Assembly (NCBI RefSeq): GCF_031458325.1
Contig: NZ_JAVDYG010000001.1
Location: forward strand, 4,092,001-4,156,000
Direction: 5' to 3'
DNA from: Nocardioides marmoribigeumensis
Lineage (GTDB): Bacteria > Actinomycetota > Actinomycetes > Propionibacteriales > Nocardioidaceae
Length of the DNA stretch: 64,000 nucleotides
Part shown: piece by piece, positions 2,879 through 34,332 of the stretch
Position numbering within the stretch: position 1 is the stretch's first letter
How the letters are laid out: each line of letters opens with the position of its first letter
Position numbers and translations under genes: made by a program
The notes under the pieces: model-generated
The model's input: the letters and a program-made list of their open reading frames with translations, nothing else
Told to the model about the DNA's origin: nothing
Databases searched by the model: none

Positions 2879-2883
2879 GGGGA

Positions 2884-2924
2884 GATCACCTCCGGTCAGG
2901 GCCGCACGGTCGCGGCCGGTGATC
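2884..2924. repeat. Nested hairpin in the leader of the secreted-protein gene
   Basis: The outer arms GATCACC (2884-2890) and GGTGATC (2918-2924) are perfect complements, and inside them GGCCGC (2900-2905) pairs with GCGGCC (2912-2917). The structure sits directly upstream of the minus-strand start at 2878, and the left arm overlaps the expected ribosome-binding region (a GGAGGTGATC-type sequence on the minus strand). It could hide the ribosome site or act as an operator. This is visible symmetry only; no RNA family is recognised. Confidence 0.45.
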
Positions 2925-2975
2925 TGACTCTGGGTGGTCCCTCTTGCGCTCCACTTGCCCCCGACTTGACCCGGG

Positions 2976-3045
2976 GAGGGGCTCAGGCGGCGCTAATTGA
3001 CATAATGTCGATTATCGGCGCAATACTCACGCCTGGGAGCCCCTC
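2976..3045. repeat. 14-bp inverted repeat framing the dif-like site
   Basis: GAGGGGCTC followed by AGGCG (2976-2989) is mirrored by CGCCT then two extra bases and GAGCCCCTC (3030-3045). The 40 bases between the arms are markedly more A/T-rich than the surroundings and hold the dif-like sequence almost exactly at the centre (midpoints about 3010 and 3008). The arms could form a cruciform or a bidirectional terminator isolating the site. No coding sequence lies between 2879 and 3071. Confidence 0.6.
2995..3022 (-). other. dif: Putative dif site for XerC/XerD chromosome-dimer resolution
   Basis: Read on the minus strand, an 11-bp arm ending in CGATAA (3022-3012), a 6-bp spacer TCGACA (3011-3006) and an 11-bp arm TTATGTCAATT (3005-2995) match the XerC-arm, spacer and XerD-arm layout of bacterial dif. 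The XerD arm differs from the E. coli arm TTATGTTAAAT at two positions only, and the XerC arm keeps TGCGC and ATAA. A dif lies at the terminus and is where XerCD, activated by FtsK, resolve dimers. Support comes from position: an A/T-rich, gene-free stretch, and a right-hand flank with most core genes on the minus strand. The call is by eye; GC-skew inversion at this point would confirm it. Confidence 0.75.
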
Positions 3046-3071
3046 TCAGAAGGGGTTGCTGTCGCGCCCCG

Positions 3072-3710
3072 CTACTGCCGCACGACCTGGCGAGGGACGG
3101 GATCGTGCTCGTGGTCCGGGTCGGCGGCGAACATCTTCTCGTAAAGGTCGTAGATGACGCCCGCCTTCTCGTTGTTGTAGAGCATCACGTCGGTGAAGCC
3201 GCGCGAGGCGGCGGCGCGCTTGGCCTCGGCGTACTGCTCGCGGTCGTCCTCGTGGGTGCACAGCCAGTCGCGGAAGACGACGTGGCGGCGCGGCTCGACG
3301 GCGCTGACCGGCCAGACGTGCACGTTGGCCGGTGGGTCCTCGCCGCGCACGAGACGGTGGCCCTGCCAGTCCGGCTCGCGGACGCGCAGGACGAACCCGG
3401 CGTCCTGCAGCGCCGGCAGCCACGAGTCCTCGTCCTCGACGTCGGCGACCGTCACGTCGACGTCGACGACGGGCTTGGCCCACAGGCCGGGCACCGCCGT
3501 GGAGCCGACGTGCTCGACCGTCAGCGCCCGGTCGCCGAGGGCGCCCACGACCCGGTCGCGGACGGCCGCGAACCACTCCGACCACGCGCGATCAGGCGGG
3601 ACGACCTCGACCGACTCCGTGGACCAGCTGTCGTGGTCGACGCGAGCCGCGGCCACCTGCTCCTGCGTCGGCTGCTCGTACGCCGTCCAGAGCGGGTGCC
3701 GCCGCGTCAC
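3072..3710 (-). CDS. GrpB family protein (UPF0157, nucleotidyltransferase-like)
   Basis: This 212-residue protein carries the GrpB signature VEHVGSTAVPGLWAKPVVDVDV, a nucleotidyltransferase-like strand with the G-S-T and K-P-V-V-D residues. Further on it has HVWPVSAVEPRRHVVFRDWL and the C-terminal YNNEKAGVIYDLYEKM helix. GrpB proteins resemble the minimal nucleotidyltransferase fold, but their substrate is unknown. It is the last gene of a four-gene minus-strand run (UvrA-like, methyltransferase, SRPBCC, GrpB). Its ATG overlaps the SRPBCC stop (ATGA, 3707-3710), which supports translational coupling. The N-terminal 60 residues are an extension often seen in actinobacterial members. Confidence 0.85.
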   Translation of the reverse strand: MTRRHPLWTAYEQPTQEQVAAARVDHDSWSTESVEVVPPDRAWSEWFAAVRDRVVGALGDRALTVEHVGSTAVPGLWAKPVVDVDVTVADVEDEDSWLPALQDAGFVLRVREPDWQGHRLVRGEDPPANVHVWPVSAVEPRRHVVFRDWLCTHEDDREQYAEAKRAAASRGFTDVMLYNNEKAGVIYDLYEKMFAADPDHEHDPVPRQVVRQ

Positions 3711-4767: not shown

Positions 4768-7125
4768 TCAGCCCAGGTAGGTCTTCAGGTGGCGACCGGT
4801 GAGCGTCGAGGCGTCGGCGACCAGGTCGGCCGGCGTGCCCTCGAAGACCACGCGACCGCCGTCGTGACCGGCGCCCGGACCGAGGTCGATGATCCAGTCG
4901 GCGTGGGCCATCACGGCCTGGTGGTGCTCGATGACGATGACCGTCCTGCCCGCATCGACCAGCCGGTCGAGCAGGGCGAGCAGGTTGGCCACGTCGGCGA
5001 GGTGGAGACCGGTGGTCGGCTCGTCGAGGACGAGGACGTCGCCCTTCTCCCCCATCTGCGCGGCCAGCTTGAGTCGCTGGCGCTCGCCGCCCGACAGGGT
5101 CGTCAACGGCTGGCCGAGCGAGAGGTAGCCCAGTCCCACGTCGACGAGCCGGTCGAGGATCTTCACCGCCGCGGAGACGTCGGACTGCCCGCCGGCGAAG
5201 TGCGCGCGCGCGTCGACGACCGACATCTCGTGCACCTCGGCGATGTCCTTGCCGCCGAGGGTGTGCTCGAGCACCTCGGCCCTGAACCGCCGGCCCTCGC
5301 ACTCCTCGCACGGCGACTCCACGGTCGCCATCGGGCCGAGCTCGGTGAGGATCACCCCGGCGCCGTTGCAGGTGGGGCACCCGCCCTCGGAGTTGGCGCT
5401 GAACAGCGCGGGCTTGACCCCGTTGGCCTTGGCGAACGCCTTGCGGATCGGCTCGAGCAGCCCGGTGTACGTCGCCGGGTTGCTCCGGCGTGAGCCCTTG
5501 ATCGCGCCCTGGTCGATCACCACCACCTCGTCGCGCGAGGCGAGCGAGCCGTGGATCAGCGAGCTCTTGCCCGACCCCGCGACCCCGGTGACCACGGTCA
5601 GCACGCCCAGCGGGACGTCGACGTCGATGTCCTGCAGGTTGTGGGTGGACGCGCCCCTGATCTCCAGGGCGCCGCTGGCCGTGCGGACCTCGGACTTGAG
5701 GGCGGCCTTGTCGTCGAGGTGGCGACCGGTGGTCGTCTCGCTGCGACGCAGCTCGTCGACCGTGCCCTCGAAGCAGATGGTGCCGCCGCCCGAGCCGGCC
5801 CCGGGTCCGAGGTCGACGGCGTGGTCGGCGATCGCGATGGTCTCGGGCTTGTGCTCGACGACGAGGACGGTGTTGCCCTTGTCGCGCAGCTGGAGCAGCA
5901 GGTTGTTCATCCGCTCGATGTCGTGCGGGTGCAGGCCGATCGTGGGCTCGTCGAAGACGTAGGTGACGTCGGTCAGCGACGAGCCGAGGTGGCGGATCAT
6001 CTTGGTGCGCTGCGCCTCGCCGCCCGACAGCGTGCCGGCCGGACGGTCCAGCGAGAGGTAGCCGAGCCCGATCTCGGAGAACGAGTCGAGCAGGTGCTGC
6101 AGCCCCTGGAGCAGCGGCGCCACCGACGACTCGTCGAGCTCGCGCACCCACTCCGCCAGGTCGCTGATCTGCATCGCGCAGAGGTCCGCGATCGACTTCC
6201 CGGCGACCTTCGAGCTCCGGGCTTCCTTCGTCAGGCGCGTGCCGTCGCAGTCGGGACACGTCTGGAACGTCACGGCCCGCTCCACGAAGCGGCGCACGTG
6301 CGGCTGCATCGCCTCGGGGTCCTTGGAGAGCATCGACTTCTGGATCCGAGGGATCACGCCCTCGAAGGTCAGGTTGACCCCCTCGACCTTGATCTTGGTC
6401 GGCTCCGCCCAGAGCATCGTCTCGAGCTGCTTCTTGCTGAACGAGCCGATCGGCTTGTCCATCGGCAGGCCCATGCCGGCGAAGAGTCGGCCGTACCACC
6501 CGTCCATCGAGTAGCCCGGCACCGTCAGGGCACCTTCGGACAGCGACTTCTGGTCGTCGTACAGCGCGGTGAGGTCGATGTCGTTGACCCGCCCCATGCC
6601 CTCGCAACGGGGGCACATGCCGCCGAGGTAGACCTCCTGGCGCACGACCCTGCGCTCGGTCCGGCCGCCCTTCTCCGTCGTCATCATGCCGCTGGCCTTG
6701 CGAGTCGGGACGTTGAAGGAGTACGCCGTCGGCGGGCCGACCCACGGGTCGCCGACGCGACTGAACAGGATCCGCAGCATGGCATTGGCATCGGTCGCAG
6801 TGCCGACCGTCGAGCGCGGGTTGGCGCCCATGCGCTCCTGGTCGACGATGATCGCCGTCGTCAGGCCTTCGAGCCGGTCGACGTCGGGACGGGGCAGCGT
6901 CGGCATGAAGCCCTGCACGAAGGACGGGTAGGTCTCGTTGATCAGTCGCTGCGACTCAGCGGCGATCGTGGCGAACACCAGCGAGCTCTTGCCCGAGCCG
7001 GAGACCCCGGTGAAAACCGTGAGACGCCGCTTCGGCAGGTCGACCGACACGCCCTGGAGGTTGTTCTCCCGGGCTCCGACGACGCGGATCAGGTCATGCG
7101 AGTCGGCAGGATGGGTGCGGCTCAT
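4768..7125 (-). CDS. UvrA-like tandem ABC ATPase (UvrA paralogue, resistance type)
   Basis: The 785-residue product is far shorter than true UvrA (about 940-1000). It keeps two ABC halves, with Walker A GVSGSGKSS at about 40-48, a second GVAGSGKSS, and two signatures, LSGGEAQR and LSGGERQR. It also keeps Cys-pair zinc modules (CPRCEGMG, CPDCDGTR and CPTCNGAG). The family includes daunorubicin-resistance DrrC-like proteins and UvrA2. They bind DNA or drug-DNA complexes and hydrolyse ATP, but the shorter members usually lack the UvrB-binding insertion. It heads the operon with a methyltransferase, an SRPBCC protein and a GrpB protein. ATG at 7125 gives MSRTHPADSHDLIRVVGA, a normal family opening. 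Confidence 0.88.
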   Translation of the reverse strand: MSRTHPADSHDLIRVVGARENNLQGVSVDLPKRRLTVFTGVSGSGKSSLVFATIAAESQRLINETYPSFVQGFMPTLPRPDVDRLEGLTTAIIVDQERMGANPRSTVGTATDANAMLRILFSRVGDPWVGPPTAYSFNVPTRKASGMMTTEKGGRTERRVVRQEVYLGGMCPRCEGMGRVNDIDLTALYDDQKSLSEGALTVPGYSMDGWYGRLFAGMGLPMDKPIGSFSKKQLETMLWAEPTKIKVEGVNLTFEGVIPRIQKSMLSKDPEAMQPHVRRFVERAVTFQTCPDCDGTRLTKEARSSKVAGKSIADLCAMQISDLAEWVRELDESSVAPLLQGLQHLLDSFSEIGLGYLSLDRPAGTLSGGEAQRTKMIRHLGSSLTDVTYVFDEPTIGLHPHDIERMNNLLLQLRDKGNTVLVVEHKPETIAIADHAVDLGPGAGSGGGTICFEGTVDELRRSETTTGRHLDDKAALKSEVRTASGALEIRGASTHNLQDIDVDVPLGVLTVVTGVAGSGKSSLIHGSLASRDEVVVIDQGAIKGSRRSNPATYTGLLEPIRKAFAKANGVKPALFSANSEGGCPTCNGAGVILTELGPMATVESPCEECEGRRFRAEVLEHTLGGKDIAEVHEMSVVDARAHFAGGQSDVSAAVKILDRLVDVGLGYLSLGQPLTTLSGGERQRLKLAAQMGEKGDVLVLDEPTTGLHLADVANLLALLDRLVDAGRTVIVIEHHQAVMAHADWIIDLGPGAGHDGGRVVFEGTPADLVADASTLTGRHLKTYLG

Positions 7126-7149: not shown

Positions 7150-7389
7150 TCAGTCGTCCTGCCCACGGCCGGTCGCCGACTGGAGCCGCTCGATGTGCTC
7201 CGAGGCCTCGGCCTTGGTGAGGTCGGCCGAGAGCTCCTCGCCGGCCTGGCGGGCGAGCGTGTCGAGGTAGCTGCGCTGGGCCCCGGTCATCGGCTCGTCC
7301 CCGGTGACCCACTCCCCCGGGTCCTTCTCGGTCGTGGTGGGGGCGGGGCCGCCGAGGATGTCGTTCGAATGTGTGTTCGATGCGGTCAT
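7150..7389 (-). CDS. DUF3072 domain protein
   Basis: A 79-residue acidic protein. The core DPGEWVTGDEPMTGAQRSYL followed by TLARQAGEELSADLTKAEAS is the DUF3072 signature, a small helical domain found in many actinobacteria and proteobacteria with no assigned biochemical role. I chose the ATG at 7387-7389 because upstream codons are Arg-rich and unlike the family. It lies 25 bases downstream of the UvrA-like start in the same direction, probably on a separate transcript. The fold resembles a small helix-turn-helix or SAP-like module; that is speculation. Confidence 0.8.
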   Translation of the reverse strand: MTASNTHSNDILGGPAPTTTEKDPGEWVTGDEPMTGAQRSYLDTLARQAGEELSADLTKAEASEHIERLQSATGRGQDD

Positions 7390-9868: not shown

Positions 9869-10384
9869 GTGGCCGTGGCGCGGACCGGTCCGGACGGCGG
9901 CGGCGCGGAGGGGTTCGAGACGTTCTTCCACGCCACGTGGCCGCGCCTGTTCCGCACGACGTACGCCGTGGCCGGTGACGTCGCGAGCGCCGAGGACGCG
10001 TTGCAGGCGGCGTACGCCAAGGCCTATGCGTCCTGGCGCCGCGTGCGGTCGGCCGACCACCCCGAGGCCTACGTGCGCCGCATGGCGGTCAACGAGGTGC
10101 TCGGCGCGCGGCGTCGGCCGGCCTTCCGGCGCGAGAGGTACGTCGACGCGGAGCCCGACCCCTCGCCCTCCCCCGAGCCGTCCCTCGCCGACCGTGACGC
10201 GGTGTGGCGGGCCGTCTCCGCCCTTCCGCCCCGGCAGCGGGCCGTCGTGGTGCTGCGCTACTACGAGGACCTCACCGAGGCGGAGATCGCCGAGGTGCTG
10301 GGCTGCAGCCGCGGCACCGTCAAGTCCCAGGCGTCCGACGCCCTCGCGCGGCTGCGCGCCCTCTCGACCAGCGGAGGCCTCTGA
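9869..10384 (+). CDS. ECF RNA polymerase sigma factor, SigE family (locus 1)
   Basis: This is a sigma-70 family protein of about 171 residues with region 2 (FETFFHATWPRLFRTTYAVAGD, then AEDALQAAYAKAYASWRRV) and region 4 (LPPRQRAVVVLRYYEDLTEAEIAEVLGCSRGTVKSQASDALARL, given here as a domain, residues about 115-160). The helix-turn-helix GCSRGTVKSQASDAL binds the -35 element. It belongs to the TIGR02983-like SigE group of actinobacteria. GTG starts at 9836, 9869 and 9875 are possible. I prefer 9869 because the domain begins soon after and the paralogue at 41907 has a similar leader length. The stop overlaps the next start (ATGA), typical of sigma and anti-sigma pairs. Confidence 0.85.
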   Translation: MAVARTGPDGGGAEGFETFFHATWPRLFRTTYAVAGDVASAEDALQAAYAKAYASWRRVRSADHPEAYVRRMAVNEVLGARRRPAFRRERYVDAEPDPSPSPEPSLADRDAVWRAVSALPPRQRAVVVLRYYEDLTEAEIAEVLGCSRGTVKSQASDALARLRALSTSGGL

Positions 10385-11466
10385 TGAACCTCACCGACGG
10401 GCTCACCGAGCACCTGCACGACCTCACTCCCCCTCCCCCGGACCTCGATCGCGTCGTCCGACGGGGCCGCAACCTGCGACGGGCCCGCCGCACCGCGCAG
10501 GTCGCGGCCGGCGTCCTGGTCGTCGTCGTCGTCGGCGCCCTCGGCAGCACTGCGGCGCTGCTGCGGGGCGGCGGCGGGGAGGACCGGGTCAGCGTGCCGC
10601 CGATCGCCACCGGCCCGATGGACCTGTCCCACGGCCTGCGGGCGTACGGCGACCTGGGGGGCCAGGTGCGCATGGGCGGCCGGTCGTTCCCGGCGAAGGA
10701 CATGCAGTGGCTCGACACGGATGCGGCCGCGACCTCGGCGGGACTCGTGTTCTTCCAGGACGGGCGGCCCTTCCTCCTCGGCGGTGACGGCCACCCCAAG
10801 GCGTTGTGGGACGGACCGGTCGACGACCCCGAGGGCTGGCACCCGACCGCGAAGAACGACGCCACCTCGCCGGCCGTGGCGTTCGCGGTGCGGGACGGCG
10901 ACACGGTCACGCTGGTGGTCCGCAACCCGCTGGCCGAGCGCTGGACCACCCTGCCGGTGAGGTGTGACGGCTCGGCCGGCTGCGACGGGCTGGTGGTCGA
11001 CGGGATCGACTCAGGCGTGGTGTTCGTGCGCACGAGCAGGGGCACGTTCGTGTGGCGCCACACGTCGGAGGAGGCCAAGGGGCTCGAGCCGTTCGCCGGC
11101 CCGCGGACGCGCGTGGCCGACGTACGCCACCGGACGGTGCTGTACGACGGGCCGCGGCCGACCGTGACCCTGCCCGGCTGGACCTACGTCGCGGGGGCGA
11201 TCGACGCCCAGCTGACCTTCGACGGGAAGCACGTCCTCTCCTGGTCCCCGGTGCTGAAGTCGATCGGCAACGACGAGGCGATCACGCTCGACCTGCCGAA
11301 GGACGCGCAGTTCTTCACCGTCGACACCGACGGGTCGATCCTCGCCGCGACCACCGGCGACCCCGCGCGGTTCTTCGACTGCGCGCTGCCCGACGGGGTG
11401 TGCGAGCCGATCGGTGACCTGCAGATGACCGGCGGCGATCCGCTGTTCATCGGCAACGACATGTGA
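10384..11466 (+). CDS. Single-pass membrane partner of the ECF sigma factor (putative anti-sigma/sensor)
   Basis: The product is 360 residues. A short cytoplasmic N-terminus (DLDRVVRRGRNLRRARR) precedes one membrane helix (VAAGVLVVVVVGALGSTAALL, about residues 39-59, shown here as a segment) and a long extracytoplasmic region rich in beta-strand sequence. There is no zinc-binding HxxxCxxC motif, so it is not a ZAS-type anti-sigma factor. It is translationally coupled to the sigma gene (ATGA overlap). The protein at 42391 has the same plan and gene order, which supports a sigma-binding or sensing role. That role is inferred from context. Confidence 0.65.
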   Translation: MNLTDGLTEHLHDLTPPPPDLDRVVRRGRNLRRARRTAQVAAGVLVVVVVGALGSTAALLRGGGGEDRVSVPPIATGPMDLSHGLRAYGDLGGQVRMGGRSFPAKDMQWLDTDAAATSAGLVFFQDGRPFLLGGDGHPKALWDGPVDDPEGWHPTAKNDATSPAVAFAVRDGDTVTLVVRNPLAERWTTLPVRCDGSAGCDGLVVDGIDSGVVFVRTSRGTFVWRHTSEEAKGLEPFAGPRTRVADVRHRTVLYDGPRPTVTLPGWTYVAGAIDAQLTFDGKHVLSWSPVLKSIGNDEAITLDLPKDAQFFTVDTDGSILAATTGDPARFFDCALPDGVCEPIGDLQMTGGDPLFIGNDM

Positions 11467-11937: not shown

Positions 11938-12732
11938 TCAGCGGCGGGCGAGGAGGAAGGCCCGGACCGCTGAGGTGAACGCCTCGGGCTTCTCCGAGTG
12001 CACCCAGTGGCCGGCGCCCTTGATCGTGACCGACGTGGTCCGTGGGAAGAGCCGCTTCATCACCTCGACGTGCTCGGGCCGCACGTAGTCCGACCGCTCC
12101 CCCGCGACCCACAGCACCGGGTGGTCGAAGGTCGCGTCGAGGTCGGGGAACCCGCCGATGATCCCCAGCTCGCGCCGTAGCAGTGCGAGGTTGGCCTGCC
12201 AGGTGAAGCCGTCCTTGGTGGTCCGCAGGTTCTGCAGCAGGAAGCCGCGCACGCGCTCGTCTCGGACCCACTGCGCGAGCTGCGCGTCGGCCTCGGCCCG
12301 CCGCTCGATCGAGTCCAGGTCGATCCGCGCGAGGCTGTCCAGCAGGTGCTCGAACTCCCCCGCCCCCTCGCTCACGGCCGGCGAGATGTCCGCCACGACC
12401 AGTCGGTCGACGAGCTCGGGGCGGCGCAGCGCGAGCACCATCGCGACCTTGCCGCCCATCGAGTGGCCGACCAGGTGGCTCGGGCCGTCGTACGCCGTGG
12501 AGAGCCAGTCGGCCACCGAGTCGGCGACCGCTTCGTAGGACGGGTCGTCGGTCCAGGCCGACTTGCCGTGGTTGGGCAGGTCCACGAGCACCGAGCGGAG
12601 GTCGGGCGTGAGCGCCTTGGCGATCTGCGTGAAGTTGCGCCCCTGGCCGAACAGGCCGTGCAGCCACACGACGCGGGCACCCGACGTGCCGACCTCCTTC
12701 GCGTGGATCGTCGGCGTGGTCACGGGGGTCAC
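11938..12732 (-). CDS. Alpha/beta-hydrolase (YbfF/ABHD11-like esterase)
   Basis: The 264-residue product shows the alpha/beta-hydrolase pattern: oxyanion-loop VVWLHGLFGQGRNF (HG-x-x-G), nucleophile elbow LVGHSMGGKVAM with the catalytic Ser, a late acid near LWVAGERSDYV, and the catalytic His in GAGHWVHSEKPEAF. The spacing of HG, GHSMGG and GHWVH fits short-chain acyl esterases of the YbfF group. Typical substrates are small acyl esters or acyl-CoA, but the physiological substrate is unknown. The gene is separated from the DUF6285 gene by one base and may share its transcript. Confidence 0.85.
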   Translation of the reverse strand: MTPVTTPTIHAKEVGTSGARVVWLHGLFGQGRNFTQIAKALTPDLRSVLVDLPNHGKSAWTDDPSYEAVADSVADWLSTAYDGPSHLVGHSMGGKVAMVLALRRPELVDRLVVADISPAVSEGAGEFEHLLDSLARIDLDSIERRAEADAQLAQWVRDERVRGFLLQNLRTTKDGFTWQANLALLRRELGIIGGFPDLDATFDHPVLWVAGERSDYVRPEHVEVMKRLFPRTTSVTIKGAGHWVHSEKPEAFTSAVRAFLLARR

Positions 12733-13108: not shown

Positions 13109-14044
13109 GCCGCCTCCTCCAGCAGGACCAGCAGGTCGAGCTCGCTCTAGGTGACGCGCCGCCCGATCGCCGCGTGCTCGAGCGACGGATGCTCCGGGGT
13201 GTGCCGGGCGGCCTGCACCTGGCAGATCACGCCCCACTTGAGCGAGGCGAGCACCTCCCAGAAGTGCAGGCGCTCGGGGTCGACCCCACTCCCGCCGGCC
13301 GAGGCGTACGCCGAGAGCAGCTCGTCCCGGGACCCGAGGCCGGCCGCCTCCCCCGGACCGCCGAAGCGCCACGGCCGCGCGCACAGCCAGCCCAGGTCCT
13401 CGGCCGGGTCACCGAGGTGGGCAAGCTCCCAGTCGAGGACCGCGACGCGCCCGTCGGGAGCCACGAGCAGGTTGCCCAGCCGGAAGTCACCGTGGACCAG
13501 GGCCGGCTCGACCGCCGCCGGCACGTGGCCGCGCAAGCCACCGCAGCGCCAGCTCGAACGCCGGCACCGGGACGCCGAACGACCGGTGCACCCCTTCGAG
13601 CAGGTCGAGCTGGTCGGCCGCGCCGAGCACGGGGACGCCCGGATCCCCTTGCACGGCGTGGATCCGGGCGAGAGCCGCTGCCGCCTCGTCGACCAGGGTC
13701 GACCGGGCACTCGCGTAGGCCTCGTCGCGCAACAGCCGCCCCGGCAGGGCCTCGCCGTCCAGCCGCTCCATGAGGTAGCCCGCGTCGAGGCCGCCCGTGC
13801 CCGCCACCTCGGCCAGCACCCGGGGTGCGGGGACGCCGGCCGCGGTCGCGGCCCGCAGCACGCGTGCCTCCGCCCCGGCGCCGATCGCCATGCCACCGGA
13901 CTCGGCCCGCGGGCAGCGCAGCACGGCCTCGCCGGCGGGCAGGATCACGTGCCACATCCGGGCGCTCGCCCCACCGCCGGCCGGTGTGGCCGACAGGGCC
14001 TCGATCCCCTGTGCACGCAGGGTCTCCGCGACCGCCGCGCTCAC
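13105..14044 (-). pseudogene. Aminoglycoside-phosphotransferase-like (APH) gene with two lesions
   Basis: The N-terminal half (14044 to about 13536) reads normally: MSAAVAETLRAQGIEALSAT, an ATP-binding lobe, and FELALRWL. At 13535-13536 an extra base shifts the frame. The next frame continues with the catalytic loop ALVHGDFRLGNLLV and the metal-binding VAVLDWELAHLGDP, as in APH/choline-kinase-like enzymes. Near the end a second lesion, an in-frame TAG at 13147-13149, cuts off 13 further codons (ELDLLVLLEEAA) that would run to a TGA overlapping the DUF6285 start. Two independent disabling changes argue for real decay. The intact family phosphorylates small hydroxyl substrates, often beside acyl-CoA dehydrogenases. 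Confidence 0.75.
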
Positions 14045-15063
14045 CAGTCGCGTCCGGTGGGGCGGCCGTCGACGAGCTGGTCGAGGTACTCCGCCATGCC
14101 GACGCCCTCGTGCCCCTCGCAGGTGAACCGGGTCATCGCCTCGGTGATGCGGGTGGTCCGGCCGTCGCGCCGGTTGCGCAGCGGCACCAGCGACATCGAC
14201 TCCCCCTCGACCACGTAGGTCCGCTCGGCGGTGTCCACCTCGATCCGCTGCCGGCGCGGGTAGTCGCGCTCGTCATACTCGCTGGTGAGGCGCACGTCCT
14301 CGATCGGCACGTAGCCGCGGCTCCCCTCCGGGGTCGTCCGCAGCACCATGCCGCCCGCGTGCAGGCCCCCGTCGTGGTCGCCGATGAGCACCGCGCTCAT
14401 CGCGAGGTCGTCGGAGAAGACCAGCGGGAGGAAGCGGTACCACGACAGGTTCTGCCACAGCCGCGGTCCCCACGAGTGGTCGCGCAGGCCCAGCGCGTCC
14501 AGGGAGTACGACGTCCCGTCGACCGTCACGGTGCCGGTGCCGCGGACGTGCTGCTCGTAGTGGCCGCGGGCGAACCCGGCGAGGACGCTGTCCTCCACGC
14601 CGTCCACGGGCTCACCACCGAAGGGGGTGACCAGGCCGCGCAGGTCGAGGTCGACCCGTCCCTCCACGAGACGGTTGGTCTCCATCGCCCGGCCGGGGTC
14701 GGCGAGCGCGAGCGGGTCGTCGAGCAGGAGCAGCGGGCCGTCGTACGTCATCCGGAGGTGCTCGAAGGGCTCGACCACCTCGAAGGCCGCTCCCCCGGCG
14801 GCCAGGGCGTCGTTGGAGTCGCAGGCCGGCCGTCCGAACCCGAACGCCACGCGCCCGTCGGGCAGGTAGACGCAGCACGAGACCTCGCTGTGCCCCTCGT
14901 GCGGCCGGTTGCCCACCCGCACCCAGACGCCCAACCTGGCAACGGGATCGAGCACGTTGGCGTACATCGACTCCTGGAAGGTCGGGGCCTCCTCGATCGG
15001 GTGGCAGTGCTCGTCGGACGGGCTCAGGCGCAGCTCGGGGGTCACCGGACCAGTCGACCACAC
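14041..15063 (-). CDS. Lipocalin-like DUF7064/DUF7065 (AttH/CrtC-type) protein
   Basis: A 340-residue protein rich in beta-strand sequence. The segment LDALGLRDHSWGPRLWQNLS carries the RDHSWG motif seen in hydroxyneurosporene-synthase-like (CrtC/AttH) lipocalin folds, where the domain duplicates to form two barrels. That supports the DUF7064/7065 type used in recent annotations. Such proteins bind or modify hydrophobic substrates; the reaction here is unknown. The stop overlaps the start of the broken phosphotransferase (ATGA, 14041-14044), so the gene is operonic with it. GTG 15045 is an alternative start. The neighbourhood (phosphotransferase, DUF6285, monooxygenase) hints at lipid or steroid-like catabolism. 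Confidence 0.6.
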   Translation of the reverse strand: MWSTGPVTPELRLSPSDEHCHPIEEAPTFQESMYANVLDPVARLGVWVRVGNRPHEGHSEVSCCVYLPDGRVAFGFGRPACDSNDALAAGGAAFEVVEPFEHLRMTYDGPLLLLDDPLALADPGRAMETNRLVEGRVDLDLRGLVTPFGGEPVDGVEDSVLAGFARGHYEQHVRGTGTVTVDGTSYSLDALGLRDHSWGPRLWQNLSWYRFLPLVFSDDLAMSAVLIGDHDGGLHAGGMVLRTTPEGSRGYVPIEDVRLTSEYDERDYPRRQRIEVDTAERTYVVEGESMSLVPLRNRRDGRTTRITEAMTRFTCEGHEGVGMAEYLDQLVDGRPTGRDW

Positions 15064-16702: not shown

Positions 16703-17767
16703 TCAACCAGATCGGTCCTGGAGACCACCGGGGCCTCGCGCCGCGACGTACGCCGCCGGGGTCGTCCCGTGCCACCGCCTGAACGCGTGGATGAAGCTCG
16801 ACGCCTCGGCGTAGCCCAGCCGCAGGGCGGTGTCCTCGACCCCGAGCCGAGCCCGGGTGAGCAGCTCGGTCGACAACGAGGCGCGCACCTCGTCGAGGAG
16901 CTCCTGGTAGGTCGTGCCCTGCTCCGCCAGCCTCCGACGCAGGGTCCGCACGCTCAGGCCCAGGTCGCGCGCCACCCCCTCCATCGGCGCGCCCCGGGCG
17001 AGGTGCTGGGTGATGAGCACCCGGGTCTGCTGGGTGACGCCGGTGCGGGCCCGGCGGCGCGACACCACGTCCTCGCACAGCGCCTCGCTCATCGCGCGCG
17101 ACTGCGGGTTGGCCTGCGGCAGCGGCAGGTCGAGGTGGGCGGGGTCGAGGACGAGCGCGCTCCGCGCCGCGGCGTACGACGGCACGCGGCCGAACACCTC
17201 GCGCGCGGCCTCGTCGGTGGTCGGCGACGAGGGGCCCTCGGCGGCGAGGTCGAGGCCGAGCAGCGGGAGCCGGCGCGCGAGCAGCTCCCCCGCCACGCTG
17301 TGGATCGCGGCCAGGTCGCGCTCGACCAGGAAGGCCCGCACGTCGGTGGGCAGCCGGTGCTCGTCGACGGCGAGCACGAGGCGACCGTCCTCCAGCGTGG
17401 GCTGCGGGATCGCGAAGGTGAAGCTCAGGTCGAGGTAGCGCAGCGCCACGTTGAGCGCGTCGACCAACGTCGGGCTGGACAGCAGCGCGAAGCCGAGGAT
17501 CCCGAACGTGCTGACGTGGTAGCCGCGCCCGACCGAGACCCCGCTGACCCGAGGGGCCGCCCGCCGCAGGTTGCGCACCACGCGCAGCTCCTGCTCGGCG
17601 GTGACCAGCCGCTCGTGGTCGGCGAGCTCCCCGACGCGCAGCCCGGTGCCCGCGAGCAGCGTCGACGAGCCGACCCCCGCCGCGGCCCCGGCCTCGAGCA
17701 GGACCGCGATGCCCGCGACGCCGCGCGCGAACGCCCAGTCGTGCGCCGCCGGGCGCTCCAGCACCAT
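16703..17767 (-). CDS. AraC-family transcriptional regulator
   Basis: The 354-residue product has an N-terminal arabinose-binding-like domain (residues about 20-200, with GVSVGRGYHVSTFGILGFAL) of the PF12625 type and a C-terminal HTH_18 pair. These are HLARGAPMEGVARDLGLSVR followed by RLAEQGTTYQELLDE, and LTRARLGVEDTALRLGYAEA followed by SSFIHAFRRWHGTTPAAY. That last motif is the classical AraC signature. It is transcribed divergently from the monooxygenase at 17861 across a 93-bp gap, so it is the likely regulator of that gene. Members of this subfamily (OruR/ArgR2-like) often control oxidative catabolism of lipids or amino acids. Confidence 0.88.
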   Translation of the reverse strand: MVLERPAAHDWAFARGVAGIAVLLEAGAAAGVGSSTLLAGTGLRVGELADHERLVTAEQELRVVRNLRRAAPRVSGVSVGRGYHVSTFGILGFALLSSPTLVDALNVALRYLDLSFTFAIPQPTLEDGRLVLAVDEHRLPTDVRAFLVERDLAAIHSVAGELLARRLPLLGLDLAAEGPSSPTTDEAAREVFGRVPSYAAARSALVLDPAHLDLPLPQANPQSRAMSEALCEDVVSRRRARTGVTQQTRVLITQHLARGAPMEGVARDLGLSVRTLRRRLAEQGTTYQELLDEVRASLSTELLTRARLGVEDTALRLGYAEASSFIHAFRRWHGTTPAAYVAARGPGGLQDRSG

Positions 17768-17860: not shown

Positions 17861-19345
17861 ATGACCTCGCACCAGAGCCCCCGAGTGATCGTGATCGGCG
17901 CCGGCTTCGGCGGCCTCAGCGTCGCCGCCGAGCTGCTCCGCCGCGGCCACACCGACGTCACCGTGCTGGAGAAGGCCGACGACGTGGGCGGGGTGTGGCG
18001 CGAGAACGACTACCCCGGGGCGGCCTGCGACGTCCCCTCCTCGCTCTACTCCTGGTCGTGGGCGCCCAACCCCGACTGGCCCCGCCGCTACTCCGAGCAG
18101 GCCGACATCCTCGATTACATCCGTGGTGTCGCCGACCGGGCGGGCCTGCGCGGGCTGGTGCGCACCGGCGTACGCGTGGTGTCGGCGGCGTGGGACGAGG
18201 ACCGCGCGGTCTGGCTGGTCAGCACCGAGGCCGGCGAGGTGCTCGAGGCCGAGGTACTCGTCCCGGCGCTGGGCCAGCTCTCCGAGCCCGTGGTCCCGGC
18301 ACTGCCCGGCGCCGAGGAGTTCACCGGGCCGGCCTTCCACTCCGCGCTGTGGGACCACGACGTCGACCTGGCGGGCAAGCGCGTCGCCGTGATCGGCACC
18401 GGCGCGAGCGCGATCCAGTTCGTGCCCGCGATCGTGGACCGCGTCGGCTCGATGACCGTCTTCCAGCGCTCGGCGCCGTACGTCGTGCCGAAGCCGGACC
18501 GTGCCTACACCTCGCTGCACACCCGCGCCTTCAACCGGCTCCCCCGCACCCAGCAGGCCGGCCGCCGGCTCACCCGTGCCGTGTCGGAGCGGTTCAACGA
18601 GTCGCTGATCCAGGGCGGCGACTGGATGACCAAGGTCCAGGAGCAGATCTGGCGGGCGACCCTGCGACGCCAGGTGCCGGACAAGGCGCTGCGCGACAAG
18701 CTGCGCCCCGACTACCCCATCGGCTGCAAGCGGCTGCTGTTCTCCAACGAGTGGTACCCCGCCCTCGCCCGCGAGCACGTCGACGTGGTCACCCACGCCG
18801 TCACGGGCCTGACCGAGGACGGCGTCCTGGCCGGCGACGGGACCGTGCACCCCGCCGACGTGGTCATCTACGGCACCGGTTTCGCGGCGACGGAGTTCCT
18901 GCGCTCGATCGAGGTCACCGGCCGCGACGACGCCGACCTGCACACGGTCTGGAAGGACGGGGCGTTCGCCCACCTCGGCCTGACCGTGAGCGGCTTCCCC
19001 AACTTCTTCTGCGTCTACGGGCCCAACACCAACCTGGGCGGCTCGTCGATCATCCAGATGCTCGAGGCACAGGCGGGCTACGTCGGCCAGGCCGTCGACC
19101 TGCTCACCTCGGGCCGCGCCGCCGCGCTCGACCTCCGCGAGGAGGTCGGCAAGGCCTACGACGACGAGATGCAGACCCGGCTGGCCGACAGCGTCTGGAC
19201 CGGCTGCGGGTCGTGGTACGAGGACTCCTCGGGCCGGGTGAGCACCAACTGGCCCGGCCTGGTCGCGGAGTACGAGGAGCGCTGCGCCCACCTCGACCCG
19301 GCCGACTTCGACCTCCTCCCCTCCCGGGCGCCGGTCACAGCCTGA
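17861..19345 (+). CDS. Baeyer-Villiger-type flavin monooxygenase
   Basis: The 494-residue protein has two Rossmann motifs, GAGFGG (residues 13-18, FAD) and GTGASA (about 181, NADPH). Between them it has the Baeyer-Villiger fingerprint F-x-G-x-x-x-H-x-x-x-W-D (FTGPAFHSALWD). Later motifs VIYGTGF and GPNTNLGGSSII are typical of this class. The enzymes insert oxygen next to ketones or oxidise steroids and cyclic ketones with NADPH. The ATG at 17861 begins the conserved strand. It is divergent from the AraC regulator, and its 3' end overlaps the PhzF gene by 11 bases on the other strand. The substrate is unknown. Confidence 0.9.
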   Translation: MTSHQSPRVIVIGAGFGGLSVAAELLRRGHTDVTVLEKADDVGGVWRENDYPGAACDVPSSLYSWSWAPNPDWPRRYSEQADILDYIRGVADRAGLRGLVRTGVRVVSAAWDEDRAVWLVSTEAGEVLEAEVLVPALGQLSEPVVPALPGAEEFTGPAFHSALWDHDVDLAGKRVAVIGTGASAIQFVPAIVDRVGSMTVFQRSAPYVVPKPDRAYTSLHTRAFNRLPRTQQAGRRLTRAVSERFNESLIQGGDWMTKVQEQIWRATLRRQVPDKALRDKLRPDYPIGCKRLLFSNEWYPALAREHVDVVTHAVTGLTEDGVLAGDGTVHPADVVIYGTGFAATEFLRSIEVTGRDDADLHTVWKDGAFAHLGLTVSGFPNFFCVYGPNTNLGGSSIIQMLEAQAGYVGQAVDLLTSGRAAALDLREEVGKAYDDEMQTRLADSVWTGCGSWYEDSSGRVSTNWPGLVAEYEERCAHLDPADFDLLPSRAPVTA

Positions 19346-20174
19346 CGGAGCCCGTCACCACGGTCACGACGTCGCCGCCGACCCAGATCCGGTCGGCGGA
19401 CTCCGCCTCGACGTGCACGCGGCCGTCGCGGTGGAGCGCGTGTCCCTGCCCCGCGACGTACGACGAGGGGAGGCGTCCGGCGCCGATGAGCCACTGGGCG
19501 AGGCCGGCGTTGAGGGAGCCGGTGACCGGGTCCTCCCAGGCGCCGTCGCCGCCGTCGAAGAAGGCGCGGACCTCGACGTCCTTGCCGAGGGCGGGCGCCT
19601 CGGCCCAGCGCCCGACGAGCCCCCACTTGAGGCCGCCGGACCGTGACTGGTCGACGCGTGCGGCCAGCACCGCCTGGGCCGAGACCAGCTCGAGGGCCAC
19701 CCAGCCCGGGCCGTTGTCCACCCAGGCCGCCCCGACCACGTCCTCGCGGCGGATCCCGGAGGCGGCGACGACCCGTTCCAGCGTCACGTCGTCGACCTCG
19801 CCCGACCGGACCAGCGGCGGCGCGGCGAACGCGAGCCGCTCGCCGCGGCGTACCTCCACGAGCCCGACGCCGCACTCCTGCACCACGACGTCGTCGCGGG
19901 CCGGCACTCCCCCGGCCTCGAACCACGCGTGGGCGGTGCCCAGCGTCGGGTGCCCGGCGAACGGCAGCTCGGTGCTCGTGGTGAAGATGCGGACCGCGTA
20001 GTCGGCCGCGGGGTCCGTCGGCGGCAGCAGGAACGTCGTCTCCGACAGGTTGGTCCAGCGGGCGAAGGCCTGCATCGCCTCGTCGTCGAGCCCGTCCGCG
20101 TCGTGCACCACCGCGAGGGCGTTGCCGAGACCGGGCACGGCGGAGAAGACGTCGACCTGGCGGAAGGGGCGCAT
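19335..20174 (-). CDS. PhzF family isomerase
   Basis: A 279-residue PhzF-fold protein. It opens MRPFRQVDVFSAVPGLGNALAV, then has the conserved SETTFLLPP with the catalytic Glu of the family, VRIFTTSTELPFAGHPTLGTAH (positions about 62-83), and the second-half mirror WEDPVTGSLNAGLAQWL. PhzF catalyses an isomerisation in phenazine synthesis, but most family members outside phenazine clusters have unknown substrates, and no phenazine genes are near. The tail-to-tail overlap with the monooxygenase gene is 11 bases. The upstream gap to the divergent MFS gene is 57 bases. Confidence 0.88.
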   Translation of the reverse strand: MRPFRQVDVFSAVPGLGNALAVVHDADGLDDEAMQAFARWTNLSETTFLLPPTDPAADYAVRIFTTSTELPFAGHPTLGTAHAWFEAGGVPARDDVVVQECGVGLVEVRRGERLAFAAPPLVRSGEVDDVTLERVVAASGIRREDVVGAAWVDNGPGWVALELVSAQAVLAARVDQSRSGGLKWGLVGRWAEAPALGKDVEVRAFFDGGDGAWEDPVTGSLNAGLAQWLIGAGRLPSSYVAGQGHALHRDGRVHVEAESADRIWVGGDVVTVVTGSVRL

Positions 20175-21504: not shown

Positions 21505-22242
21505 ATGGCCCGTCTCGTCGTCGCCCACCTGAGCGACACCCACTTCGGGGTCCCGGGTGCCGCCCGACGCGTGCGCCTGGCGCTCGACCACCTGCACGGC
21601 ATGTCGCCGGTGCCCGGCCTGCTCGTCGTCTCGGGTGACGTCACCGACCACGGCCTGCCGGAGGAGTACGCCGAGGCGCGGGCCGTGCTCGACACGTGGA
21701 GCGGCGTGCTGGCCGTCTGCCCGGGCAACCACGACGTGCGGGCGGCGTACGTCGAGGCCTTCGGCCCGACCGAGACCGTGGTGACCCACTCCGGGCGGCG
21801 CTTCGTGCTGCTCGACAGCCTGGTCGACGCGGTCGACGGGGTGCGCACCGACCCGGGCCACCTCGCCGAGGGATCCCTTGCCTGGTTGGAGGAACGGCTC
21901 ACCGAGGACGACTCCCCCACGTTCGTGGTGCTGCACCACCCGCCGGCCGACCTGGGCCTCGGGCTGATGGACCCGATCAAGCTCGACAACGGGCCGGCGC
22001 TCGCCACGGTGGTCGCCCGGCACCCGCACGTCGTCGCGACGCTGGTCGGTCACGCCCACACGATGGGCAGCGCGTCGTTCGCCGGCCGGCCGTTGCTGGT
22101 CGGCGGCGGGTGCGTCTCGACGGTCACTCACGACGCCGAGGCGCTGCCGGTGCTCTGGATGGACGCGCCGGTGAGCCTCGCGCTGCACCTCCACGCCGAC
22201 GACGGCTCGCTGGTCACCCACTGGCGGGCCCTCCCGGCATGA
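21505..22242 (+). CDS. Metallophosphoesterase (3',5'-cAMP phosphodiesterase-like)
   Basis: The 245-residue product contains the full calcineurin-like metal-binding set in order: LSDTHFG (D-x-H), VVSGDVTDHG (G-D), PGNHDVR (GNHD), VLHHPPAD and VGHAHTMG (GH-x-H). The spacing fits class III cyclic-nucleotide phosphodiesterases (CpdA-like), with two divalent metals in the site. Substrates range from cAMP to various phosphodiesters. An acceptable Shine-Dalgarno (AGGAGG at about 21490) precedes the ATG. Its stop overlaps the next ATG (ATGA, 22239-22242), so the next gene is translationally coupled. Confidence 0.88.
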   Translation: MARLVVAHLSDTHFGVPGAARRVRLALDHLHGMSPVPGLLVVSGDVTDHGLPEEYAEARAVLDTWSGVLAVCPGNHDVRAAYVEAFGPTETVVTHSGRRFVLLDSLVDAVDGVRTDPGHLAEGSLAWLEERLTEDDSPTFVVLHHPPADLGLGLMDPIKLDNGPALATVVARHPHVVATLVGHAHTMGSASFAGRPLLVGGGCVSTVTHDAEALPVLWMDAPVSLALHLHADDGSLVTHWRALPA

Positions 22243-24220: not shown

Positions 24221-24660
24221 GCGGGTTCTCCTTGCAGGCGTGCCAGATGGGCGTCGAGCTTGTCCAGCGAGGACAGGAAGCCGGCCTGCGCCTCGGGCGT
24301 GCGCATCCACTCGGGGACGTGCCGCTGGTGGATGACGACCTCGGTGGTGCCGTCGCCGAGGTCCTCCAGCGTGCTGGTCGTCTCGACCCCCGACGCCGGG
24401 TCGACCCAGACCAGCAGCGAGGGCGCCTGGACCTGGGTGAAGGTGGCGACCATGCGGTGGCTGCCGTGCTCCCCCACCATCAGCGTCTCGAAGCGGCCGC
24501 CGGGCCGCAGCTCCACGACGATGCCGTCGAGCGGGGTCGACATGCCGGCCGGCCCCCAGAACTGCGCCAGCTCCGCGGGCTCGGTCAGGCAGCGCCACAC
24601 CAGCTCACGGGGGGCGCGGAACACCCGCCGGTGCACCAGCTCGCTCACGCTCTCGCTCAC
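24217..24660 (-). CDS. AHSA1-type SRPBCC protein (ArsR-linked)
   Basis: The 147-residue product opens VSELVHRRVFRAPRELVWRC and continues LAQFWGPAGMSTPLDGIVVE and RPGGRFETLMVG, the AHSA1/SRPBCC pattern of ArsR-paired proteins. After it come VWVDPASGVETTSTLEDL and a helical end. The GTG at 24658-24660 overlaps the ArsR stop (24657-24659), and GTG 24648 is an alternative. ArsR-SRPBCC pairs are widespread in actinobacteria; the SRPBCC member may bind the ligand sensed by the system. No catalytic residues are apparent. Confidence 0.82.
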   Translation of the reverse strand: MSESVSELVHRRVFRAPRELVWRCLTEPAELAQFWGPAGMSTPLDGIVVELRPGGRFETLMVGEHGSHRMVATFTQVQAPSLLVWVDPASGVETTSTLEDLGDGTTEVVIHQRHVPEWMRTPEAQAGFLSSLDKLDAHLARLQGEPA

Positions 24661-25876: not shown

Positions 25877-27594
25877 GGGGGGTCGCCGGGCAGCGCGCCC
25901 ACCGACCCGTCGGGCTTGACCAGCACGGTCACGACGCGGTGCAGCTCGGGACGGTCGTGCCGGCCGCCGTGGACCTCGCCGCGCGCCCACCACATCTCCA
26001 ACCCCTCGGGCTTGACCTCGAGGGTGGCCAGGTTGTTGTCGAACCACGGACCCTCGACCTTGTCCCAGCGGAACGGCGGGTCCTGGACCCCGGCCCGGCG
26101 GGCGGCCCGGCGCCACAGGTGCGCACCGATGCCGTGGGACAGCGCGGCGGCGCCCATGCGCACGACGCGGGGCAGCGGGTTGCGGATCGGGGAGCAGACC
26201 GCCTGGACGATCGTGCCGGGCCCCGGGCAGTCGCGGACCTGGGAGACGTAGGAGTTGTGCACGTCCCCGGACAGGAAGGTGACCGTGCGCGGCGCGGGGC
26301 CGCGACGGCCGACCGCGACCTCGGCCGCCATGTGCGCGACCTGCTGGAAGCCCTGCTGGAAGGCCGCCCAGTGCTCCAGGTCGATGCCCTGCCGGACCAC
26401 CTCGGCGGCGCGTCCGGCGCGACCACCCCACGCGCCCTCGGCGACGGCCTCGTCGAAGGCCTCGAGGTGGTGCAGCGACTCGGGCAGCAGGAAGGGCAGC
26501 GAGGTGCCGATCAGCAGGTGCTCGAAGCCGCCCTGCATCTGCTCGTCGAGCCAGGCCATCTCGTCCTCGTCGAGGATGTTGCGCCGGCCGGGCTCGAGCA
26601 CGCGCGCGGCGCGCGAGTCGACCATGACGACCCGGCTGCCGTTGAGGTCGCGCGTGAACGACCAGCGGTAGGTGTCGGGCTCGCGGTCGACGCGGTCGGC
26701 GAAGTCATCGAGCACCTCGCTCAGGTCGAGCTCGACGTCGCCGTCGTGCTCGAGCACCCGGCGGTAGATCTCGTCCTCGGCGCGCTCGGCCGGGCTGAGG
26801 TTGCCCAGGTGCTGGTAGACCCAGTACGACGCGAGGCCGCCGACGATGCGGTCGTGCCACCACGAGGTCTCGGCCATCTGGCGTCGCCAGACGTCGGAGG
26901 TGTTCCAGTCGTCGCGGATGTCGTGGTCGTCGAAGATCATCGAGCTGGGCAGCGTGGAGAGCAGCCACCGGTTGACCGGGTCGCTCCAGGCCAGGCAGTA
27001 GAGGTGGGCGTACTCCTCGTAGTCCTTGAGCTCCTCCCCCGGTGGCTCGTCGAGCGAGCGCCGCGTCTCGATGAACTCCTGCATCGCCTCGGAGGTGATG
27101 TCGGCGTAGACCTGGTCGCCGAGGAAGAGCACGAGGTCGGGCCACGGCAGCTCGTCGGGGTCGAGGGTCACCCCGCCCATGGCCAGGGCGTAGGCCCGCA
27201 GCGCGTCCACGCCGTGGATGGCGTTGCCCTTCGCGTCGTGCGGCACGCTCGTGCGGCACGAGCCGAAGGCGATCCTCGGCGGCTTGCCCGGCTTGACGGT
27301 GGTGATGACCGGCTCGGGGAGGTCGAGCCCGTCGTAGTCGGCCGGCGGCCACGCGTGCTCCCCGTCGACGTCGAGGGCGTAGGGCGTGATCGTGCCGGGC
27401 TCGAGCCCGGTGCACTCCACGAGCGCGTAGTGGTGGTCGTGCACGCGGAAGGTGCGCGCGGACCACGACCCGGCGGCCGTGGTGACGGTGACCGTGCCTG
27501 CCGACTCGGTCTCCACCCACACGGCGGCGGAGGTCTCGTCGACGTGGCGCATCAGCGGACCGAGGCGCAGCGGGGTGCTCAGGGCCCCACTCAT
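25873..27594 (-). CDS. PhoD-like alkaline phosphatase/phosphodiesterase
   Basis: A 573-residue PhoD-family metalloenzyme. An N-terminal Ig-like domain (residues about 10-105) precedes the catalytic domain, which has GSCRTSVP, VLFLGDQVYADI, MIFDDHDIRDDWN and LSGDVHNSYV. These carry the Asp/His ligands for the Fe3+/Ca2+ cluster of the family. No Tat or Sec signal peptide is visible at the start (MSGALSTPLRLGPL), so this member is probably cytoplasmic, unlike secreted PhoD. The start overlaps the dehydrogenase stop by ATGA (27591-27594). The middle region (residues about 220-330) is rich in acidic helices. Confidence 0.85.
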   Translation of the reverse strand: MSGALSTPLRLGPLMRHVDETSAAVWVETESAGTVTVTTAAGSWSARTFRVHDHHYALVECTGLEPGTITPYALDVDGEHAWPPADYDGLDLPEPVITTVKPGKPPRIAFGSCRTSVPHDAKGNAIHGVDALRAYALAMGGVTLDPDELPWPDLVLFLGDQVYADITSEAMQEFIETRRSLDEPPGEELKDYEEYAHLYCLAWSDPVNRWLLSTLPSSMIFDDHDIRDDWNTSDVWRRQMAETSWWHDRIVGGLASYWVYQHLGNLSPAERAEDEIYRRVLEHDGDVELDLSEVLDDFADRVDREPDTYRWSFTRDLNGSRVVMVDSRAARVLEPGRRNILDEDEMAWLDEQMQGGFEHLLIGTSLPFLLPESLHHLEAFDEAVAEGAWGGRAGRAAEVVRQGIDLEHWAAFQQGFQQVAHMAAEVAVGRRGPAPRTVTFLSGDVHNSYVSQVRDCPGPGTIVQAVCSPIRNPLPRVVRMGAAALSHGIGAHLWRRAARRAGVQDPPFRWDKVEGPWFDNNLATLEVKPEGLEMWWARGEVHGGRHDRPELHRVVTVLVKPDGSVGALPGDPP

Positions 27595-33547: not shown

Positions 33548-34332
33548 GCCCTCGAGCGTACGCGTGCCATCCCACGGCGGACCTGGGCCCGCCGGCGCTC
33601 GACGCCCCAGGCGGTGATGCGGCGCAGGGACTCGGTGGCGATGTCCGGGTTCATCTTGGACTCCCCCCGCTCCCGCTCGAGGAACTCGATCGGGACCTCC
33701 CGGACCGTGAGCCCCGCCTCGAGGGTGCGCACGGTGAGGTCGGTCTGGAAGCAGTAGCCGACCGACTCCACCGTGGTCAGGTCGATGGCCCGCAGCGTGC
33801 TCGCCCGGAACAGCCGGAACCCCGCGGTGACGTCGCGCACCGGCACCCCGAGCAGCGTGCGGGCGTAGAGGTTGCCGCCGACCGACAGCGCCTTGCGGAA
33901 CAGGCTCCAGTTGACGACGCTGCCACCTCGGACCCAGCGCGAGCCGATCACCAGGTCGGCGGTCTCGAGGGCCGCCCGCAGCCGGTGCAGCTGCTCGGGC
34001 TGGTGGGAGCCATCGGCGTCCATCTCCCCCACGACGTGGTAGCCGCGCTCCAGCGCGACGGCGAACCCGTGGAGGTAGGCCGCGCCGAGACCCGCCTTCT
34101 CGGTGCGGTGCACGACCCGGACCCGCTCGTCCTGCGCGGCCAGGCGGTCGGCGATGTCGCCGGTGCCGTCGGGGGACCCGTCGTCGACGACGAGCACGTG
34201 CGCGGTCGGCTGAGCTGCGAGCAGCCGCCCGACGATCCACTCCAGGTTGTCGGCCTCGTCGTAGGTCGGCACCACGACCACCATCGGTGCGTCGGGCCCG
34301 AGGGGTGCCGGCGCCGGCAGGACCTCGCTCAC
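33544..34332 (-). CDS. ppm: Polyprenol-phosphate mannose synthase (GT2, Ppm/Dpm1)
   Basis: A 262-residue GT2 glycosyltransferase. It has VVVVPTYDEADNLEWIVGRL, LVVDDGSPDGTGD, the DxD-like EMDADGSHQPEQL, GSRWVRGGSV, and RDVTAGFRLFR in the acceptor region, all as in Dpm1/Ppm1. It transfers mannose from GDP-mannose to polyprenyl phosphate at the inner membrane, supplying lipoglycan and mannoprotein synthesis. In Mycobacterium this domain is fused to or adjacent to Lnt, and here the separate genes follow each other (lnt then ppm). The GTG at 34330-34332 is the family start; 18 bases separate it from lnt. Confidence 0.93.
   Translation of the reverse strand: MSEVLPAPAPLGPDAPMVVVVPTYDEADNLEWIVGRLLAAQPTAHVLVVDDGSPDGTGDIADRLAAQDERVRVVHRTEKAGLGAAYLHGFAVALERGYHVVGEMDADGSHQPEQLHRLRAALETADLVIGSRWVRGGSVVNWSLFRKALSVGGNLYARTLLGVPVRDVTAGFRLFRASTLRAIDLTTVESVGYCFQTDLTVRTLEAGLTVREVPIEFLERERGESKMNPDIATESLRRITAWGVERRRAQVRRGMARVRSRA

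Follow-up and report, generated by a model that had tools for sequence, protein, structure and literature searches.

A 64,000-nt stretch of the Nocardioides marmoribigeumensis genome (contig NZ_JAVDYG010000001.1, positions 4,092,001–4,156,000 of the forward strand; the whole stretch is referred to here as the window) contains, at 2995–3022 on the minus strand, a 28-mer that is very probably the chromosomal dif site in the terminus region of this Nocardioidaceae bacterium. Throughout the window the heptamer GGGGGAG points toward this site, on the plus strand to its left and on the minus strand to its right. The reading favoured here, which is given a probability of about 0.85 and draws on sequence comparison, is that the 28-mer is a dif site acted on by XerCD and that the septal pump FtsK would be led to it by GGGGGAG. 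Taken as a dif site, the 28-mer belongs to a known class and is ordinary within it; GGGGGAG around dif is probably a new guide word.

The dif site

Read on the minus strand, positions 2995–3022 (contig coordinates 4,094,995–4,095,022) are TGCGCCGATAA-TCGACA-TTATGTCAATT, a layout of 11 + 6 + 11 nt. Alignment to the dif sites of Escherichia coli and Frankia alni divides the 28-mer into a putative XerC-binding arm (TGCGCCGATAA, 3012–3022, minus strand), a central spacer (TCGACA, 3006–3011, minus strand) and a putative XerD-binding arm (TTATGTCAATT, 2995–3005, minus strand), the last of which matches the E. coli arm at 9 of 11 positions and the Frankia arm at 10 of 11. An earlier note on the window, made from its letters without database searches, had proposed this 28-mer as dif; the coordinates it gave, the two arms with a 6-bp spacer and the two differences from the E. 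coli XerD arm were all borne out. Over its full length the 28-mer is identical to the known dif sites at 23/28 (Frankia alni), 19/28 (E. coli) and 17/28 (Bacillus subtilis) positions, the reference sequences being those printed in the accessible portion of PMC3025954. The first bases of the spacer differ between relatives.

The site is unique in its own chromosome. A 29-base dif pattern allowing up to three mismatches has a single match in the whole 4,440,796-bp single-contig genome, and one copy per chromosome is what characterizes a dif/XerCD site. Within the window, a 17-base core pattern at up to three mismatches has two matches, which are one site read on both strands, and zero matches were found to it in 100 dinucleotide shuffles of the window. 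The site is also conserved: a 20-base dif core, again with up to three mismatches, is present in 137 of 149 genomes of the family (the present genome included) and in 125 of the 128 with completeness of 90 % or more and contamination of 5 % or less. As a control, the core pattern was reversed, and it then has matches in just 2 of the 149. Second core matches occur in some family genomes, mostly at three mismatches; in the present genome the second match to the 20-base core is the same site on the opposite strand. According to the accessible text of PMC3025954, dif was predicted in 66 of 66 Actinobacteria genomes. Separately, dif sites of actinobacterial type are found in database records labelled Proteobacteria, Bacillus and Calescibacterium, which are probably mislabelled or mixed assemblies.

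The position agrees with a location in the terminus region. The dnaA gene lies at 1,981,853, with two parS-like places beside it (identified with what we take to be the parS consensus), and the offset of dif from the point opposite dnaA amounts to 2.4 % of the genome. Across 40 single-contig genomes (the present one and 39 of 48 searched) the median offset of dif from the dnaA antipode is 1.7 %, with 36 at 5 % or less and all 40 at 9.1 % or less; lengths were rounded to 0.1 Mb for 23 of the 40, and in one the dnaA match is in two pieces and below the cut-off. The identification made in the earlier note is therefore supported by the sequence match, by the single occurrence in the genome, by the conserved core in the family and by a location almost opposite dnaA. 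The genome also encodes two Xer-type recombinases, whose best equivalog models are XerD and XerC, at scores below the cut-offs of these models; one of the two scores above the PRK00283 tyrosine recombinase cut-off. The gamma domain of the FtsK encoded here is above the Pfam cut-off.

Polarity of GGGGGAG in the window and genome

The window holds 32 copies of GGGGGAG, and all 32 are oriented toward dif. The three copies to the left of dif are on the plus strand (1433–1439, 2088–2094 and 2256–2262). The 29 copies to the right are on the minus strand, at 5047–5053, 7312–7318, 10168–10174, 10427–10433, 10433–10439, 12097–12103, 12355–12361, 13348–13354, 14200–14206, 14790–14796, 17285–17291, 18539–18545, 19907–19913, 21912–21918, 24469–24475, 27034–27040, 31297–31303, 33661–33667, 34024–34030, 35281–35287, 35558–35564, 38397–38403, 40950–40956, 44435–44441, 46281–46287, 51217–51223, 56684–56690, 56849–56855 and 61617–61623.

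The polarity extends well beyond the window. Over 402 contiguous kb of the genome, GGGGGAG is found at 160:8 (counts are given throughout as copies toward dif : copies away from dif) and ranks first of the 5920 heptamers with at least 30 copies. The interval in which its strand switches, 4,094,256–4,097,047, includes dif, and the score drops steadily as the split point is moved off dif. The polarity is alike whether the copies lie in genes on the leading strand (81:3), in genes on the lagging strand (56:3) or in intergenic DNA (22:2), and is thus independent of gene strand; one additional copy, in ambiguous sequence, is oriented toward dif as well. Additionally, the density of the heptamer rises toward the terminus, from 0.197 per kb near the origin through 0.275 in samples from mid-arm to 0.418 at distances of up to 200 kb from dif.

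In the mechanism proposed, XerC and XerD would, as is usual for their family, bind the two arms of dif and exchange strands at the spacer, and this exchange would turn dimeric chromosomes into monomers at division. FtsK would be led to dif from both replichores by GGGGGAG (core RGGGGAG), which on either side is placed so that its 5′ to 3′ reading runs toward dif and which is denser near dif. GGGGGAG probably tells FtsK which way to go. The action of XerCD on the 28-mer and the reading of GGGGGAG by the gamma domain of FtsK are inferred; dif would likewise mark the point of both dimer resolution and polarity convergence.

GGGGGAG in related genomes

The same word was recovered in the family by an unbiased count. 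When 10 kb on each side of dif were compared in 41 genomes (the present one and 40 others in which the dif core is matched, 38 of these in a single contig), the most polar exact octamer was CGGGGGAG, with 329 copies toward dif and 1 away. GGGGGAG stands at 521:4 in these loci, and its best switch interval includes dif in 41 of 41. The six other arrangements of six G and one A show lower polarity; GGGAGGG, for instance, is at 107:21, GGGGAGG at 166:41 and GAGGGGG at 102:27. The base preceding GGGGAG matters: G (520:4) and A (136:6) give strong polarity and C (128:78) and T (30:17) weak polarity, and the core is therefore taken to be RGGGGAG. In the same loci CAGGGGAG is relatively commoner close to dif, with 23:1 within 1 kb against 86:4 within 10 kb; it is possible that this is a second form of the polar word.

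A wider set was assembled by an exact-pattern scan for actinobacterial dif, with one genome per species and at least 120 loci. GGGGGAG is at 405:5 in this set (253:4 in 80 loci and 152:1 in 40). With the 10 loci of Nocardioidaceae and Kribbella taken out of the first 80, the count is 210:3 and the word still ranks first of 16,168 heptamers. Among the loci listed, 64 of these 70 have a copy, and the switch is perfect in 23 of the 25 that have copies on both sides. Ranked by group, GGGGGAG comes first among the heptamers in 5 of 10 groups (Geodermatophilaceae, Microbacteriaceae, Micrococcaceae, Nocardioidaceae with Kribbella, and Pseudonocardiaceae); this ranking covered 72 of the 80 loci, with 8 loci of other groups outside it. 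Jiangella and Nocardiopsis, with one locus each, have another top heptamer.

Eighteen further loci were added, three of which have one flank only. Six are from class relatives and give 27:0, and 12 are from outside the class Actinomycetes. Of the latter, two genomes of one family give 19:0 and one genome of another family 2:0, and the nine genomes with an ATATAT-type dif give 36:4 for GGGGGAG and 38:2 for AGGGGAG. In the class Actinomycetes the word is about 99 % polar near dif. The recognition helix of the FtsK gamma domain reads GFAKAGRLMD in the present protein, and of 9 class relatives 8 share it, the other one being unparsed by the pattern; outside the class, 38 of 41 stretches have GFARAGR or GY.RA[AG]R helices. 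There is a reasonable prospect, somewhat better than even, that GGGGGAG (core RGGGGAG) is an FtsK guide throughout the phylum Actinomycetota, a KOPS whose word is not the proteobacterial GGGNAGGG, locating the dif region to within a few kb where GC skew fails to do so, and that in the class Actinomycetes it would be read by the GFAKAGRLMD gamma domain.

The ftsK gene is itself at varying distances from dif. It lies about 0.43 Mb away in the present genome and only about 15–35 kb from the ATATAT-type dif candidate in six genomes outside the class.

GGGGGAG on the origin side

Of the copies of GGGGGAG that lie no more than 10 kb from dnaA in 20 relatives, 35 point to the terminus and 42 to the origin. 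Such a count could reflect either a lack of polarity or a switch displaced from dnaA, and copies were therefore recounted by side with the strand of dnaA set as plus. On the left the strands are mixed (24 on plus, 28 on minus), and on the right 7 copies point to the terminus (plus) and 18 to the origin (minus), a lean in the wrong direction. In the present genome, 26 of the 33 copies in the 140 kb left of dnaA point to the terminus (7 on plus, 26 on minus); from dnaA to about 80 kb to the right the strands are mixed, and farther right most copies point to the terminus again. The best origin-side switch in the region 1,850,001–2,170,000 is at 2.043–2.052 Mb, 60–70 kb from dnaA, and it is diffuse. 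Around the origin the polarity of GGGGGAG is weak, and dnaA lacks the sharp switch that is seen at dif.

Strand composition, the gap around dif and its neighbours

The earlier note had expected dif to account for a strand bias beginning at it, and this was not upheld. No GC-skew switch is seen at dif in 41 sampled pieces of the genome, over which GC skew ranges only from −0.066 to +0.040, and GC skew was rejected as a marker of the terminus for this genome. The same note had held that the lack of a skew change within several kb would count against dif. For GC skew such a lack is what is found, yet the observation cannot discriminate here, because none of the 41 pieces shows a usable skew. Coding-strand bias shifts in the expected direction, with 101,085 bp on the plus and 68,784 on the minus strand left of dif against 66,327 and 98,370 bp, respectively, on the right (open reading frames chosen by a third-position GC rule rather than by a trained gene finder). 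The best switch point is at 4,073,041, 22 kb to the left of dif, so the gene-strand switch, although right in direction, was also set aside as a terminus marker.

The dif site lies in a gap at 2879–3071, between a 70-aa open reading frame without a family match (2666–2878) and a gene of the GrpB family (3072–3710). The earlier description of the gap as locally A/T-rich holds only weakly, since its GC content is 66 % compared with 70–77 % in 2-kb pieces of the window; it is the 28-mer alone that is A/T-rich (39 % GC). The eight neighbours of dif that were scanned belong to ordinary gene families on both sides. Farther out, a 785-aa UvrA-like protein is encoded at 4768–7125 on the minus strand; its score of 673.6 bits is under the UvrA equivalog cut-off of 729.8, and it is therefore possibly a paralogue of the repair protein. 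At 136–573 on the plus strand is a gene for a PIN-domain protein (Pfam PIN), possibly the toxin of a VapBC-type pair.

Alternative explanations

Strand-biased oligomers are common in bacteria, and the 28-mer could be dif while GGGGGAG, instead of being a signal for FtsK, owes its polarity, as a by-product, to replication-strand mutation bias or to gene orientation. The coding strand shows the expected lean toward dif as well, and in the present genome the polarity continues on the left as far as dnaA (7 copies on plus and 26 on minus over 140 kb). However, the small GC skew and the equal polarity in leading-strand genes, lagging-strand genes and intergenic DNA speak against such a by-product, as does the far lower polarity of other heptamers of six G and one A, such as GGGAGGG and GAGGGGG. 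A by-product of this kind would also predict a switch at the origin as sharp as that at dif, but in the 20 relatives the strands are mixed to the left of dnaA and lean the wrong way to its right, and the switch on the origin side of the present genome extends across tens of kb. The weak polarity and absence of a sharp switch at the origin side thus argue against plain replication-strand bias, less decisively than a true absence of polarity would, and this explanation is considered unlikely. Chi words, too, are G-rich and strand-biased, and GGGGGAG might be a Chi-like recombination signal for a nuclease of the RecBCD/AdnAB type of Actinobacteria, oriented with replication. The available text of PMC5993296 does call chi a simple strand-biased sequence. 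Both the abundance and the strand bias of GGGGGAG rise toward dif here, which counts against a Chi-like role, and it is judged quite improbable.

The remaining alternatives concern the site rather than the word. Some phages and other elements integrate at dif through XerCD, and the 28-mer might be an attachment site resembling dif that an integrative element left behind or uses, and not the dif of the host. A single site in the genome, a core shared by 137 of 149 family genomes, a location near the dnaA antipode in 40 genomes, a GC content like that of the rest of the window and the ordinary gene families among the eight neighbours make this extremely improbable. Likewise, it is very doubtful that dif sits in the loop of a functional hairpin, such as a terminator or a fork barrier. 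The imperfect inverted repeat on which this would be based does have arms of 9 perfect bp around dif (left arm 2976–2984, right arm 3037–3045), and a further 5 bp can be paired by eye past a 2-nt bulge, so the 14-bp repeat of the earlier note can be recognized in part; it is unremarkable and not conserved. Its score is equalled at 44 of 2000 random positions in the window and reached by 2 of 43 dif loci of relatives (42 genomes, one counted twice), the mean score is 5.91 at the relatives' dif loci compared with 5.97 at random positions, and no common repeat was seen in the flanks outside the 28-mer among 51 loci compared by eye. The repeat, neither conserved nor rare, was therefore ruled out as a functional hairpin and is probably incidental.

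Several observations weigh against the favoured reading of an XerCD-acted dif site with GGGGGAG as the FtsK guide. GC skew lends dif no independent support. Both Xer proteins score under the NCBIfam XerC/XerD equivalog cut-offs (304.8 compared with 335.15, and 329.4 compared with 329.6). GGGGGAC is also fairly polar in the 41 family loci (137:9), because of which the last base of GGGGGAG may be non-essential. The family counts are not fully independent, since 156 of 524 motif copies can be aligned to a copy in another family locus (related species with shared flanks); the wider sets of loci answer this. Outside Nocardioidaceae and Kribbella, 6 of 70 loci have no GGGGGAG, and a copy in 3 others is directed away from dif. 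The word is polar without being the top heptamer in Mycobacteriaceae (13:0), Nocardiaceae/Gordonia (21:0) and Corynebacterium (2:0). The wrong-way lean to the right of dnaA is unexplained. Additionally, other classes have a different gamma helix and use largely the same word, [AG]GGGGAG (GGGGGAG at 19:0 and 36:4), so a change in the helix does not closely track the motif. Strict co-variation of FtsK helix and motif, clear within the class Actinomycetes and blurred by the other classes, is thus not claimed.

Significance and comparison with known systems

Both dif in Actinobacteria and guide words, known as KOPS, SRS and AIMS, have been described before. A guide word for actinobacterial FtsK was not found among the entries listed in searches of the open literature, although the heptamer may already stand in a published list. 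This high-GC genome shows no usable GC skew in the pieces sampled, which makes its terminus hard to locate by skew. With a polarity of about 99 % and a switch within a few kb of dif, such a word would be an easy means of placing the dif region in draft genomes, and would be useful for detecting misassemblies and inversions. It also opens the question of how FtsK is steered in Actinomycetota and, as a testable part of it, how changes of the gamma helix relate to changes of the guide word between phyla.

The site itself is close to the actinobacterial dif exemplified by Frankia alni (as given in the accessible part of PMC3025954). Both are 28-bp two-arm sites, one per chromosome, with an XerD arm of the ATTATGTCAA type, CCGATAA in the XerC arm and a location near the point opposite the origin. 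They differ at 5 of 28 positions (two in the XerC arm, two in the spacer and one in the XerD arm), which is ordinary variation.

KOPS are described in PMC5357621 and PMC13277299 as polar, G-rich words on which FtsK is loaded and by which it is directed to dif; they are more than 90 % polar near dif and densest there, and PMC13342612 gives the switch at dif as their hallmark. GGGGGAG resembles KOPS (E. coli GGGNAGGG) as a short G-rich word that points toward dif from both sides, switches at dif and rises in density near it, and it is probably the actinobacterial counterpart of KOPS, by analogy. It differs from the KOPS word in favouring a purine ahead of GGGGAG and in having no need of the 3′ GG. 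The E. coli sequence GGGNAGGG is only weakly polar in the 41 family loci (128:41) and in the wider set of at least 120 loci (128:61), and was rejected as the guide word of this genome. In 50 kb of E. coli K-12, taken as a positive control, GGGNAGGG is at 10:0 and GGGGGAG is not polar (2:1). The gamma helix differs as well; the solved chain 2j5p, presumably from E. coli, carries GYNRAARIIE in place of GFAKAGRLMD, and two of the three residues that we take to be the KOPS contacts are different in the present protein.

The sequence GAGAAGGG, which we take to be the SRS of Bacillus subtilis SpoIIIE, is comparable to GGGGGAG as a polar guide word for a pump of the FtsK family, with reading by FtsK being presumptive here. 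It differs in being merely 33:17 at the present loci, and with this weak polarity it was likewise rejected. AIMS, as defined by Hendrickson and Lawrence and reported in the accessible text of PMC5993296, show three trends: strand bias, and an abundance and a bias that both increase toward the terminus. GGGGGAG shows all three in the present genome. AIMS are sets of octamers drawn up for each genome and GGGGGAG is a heptamer, which may stand within the actinobacterial AIMS lists.
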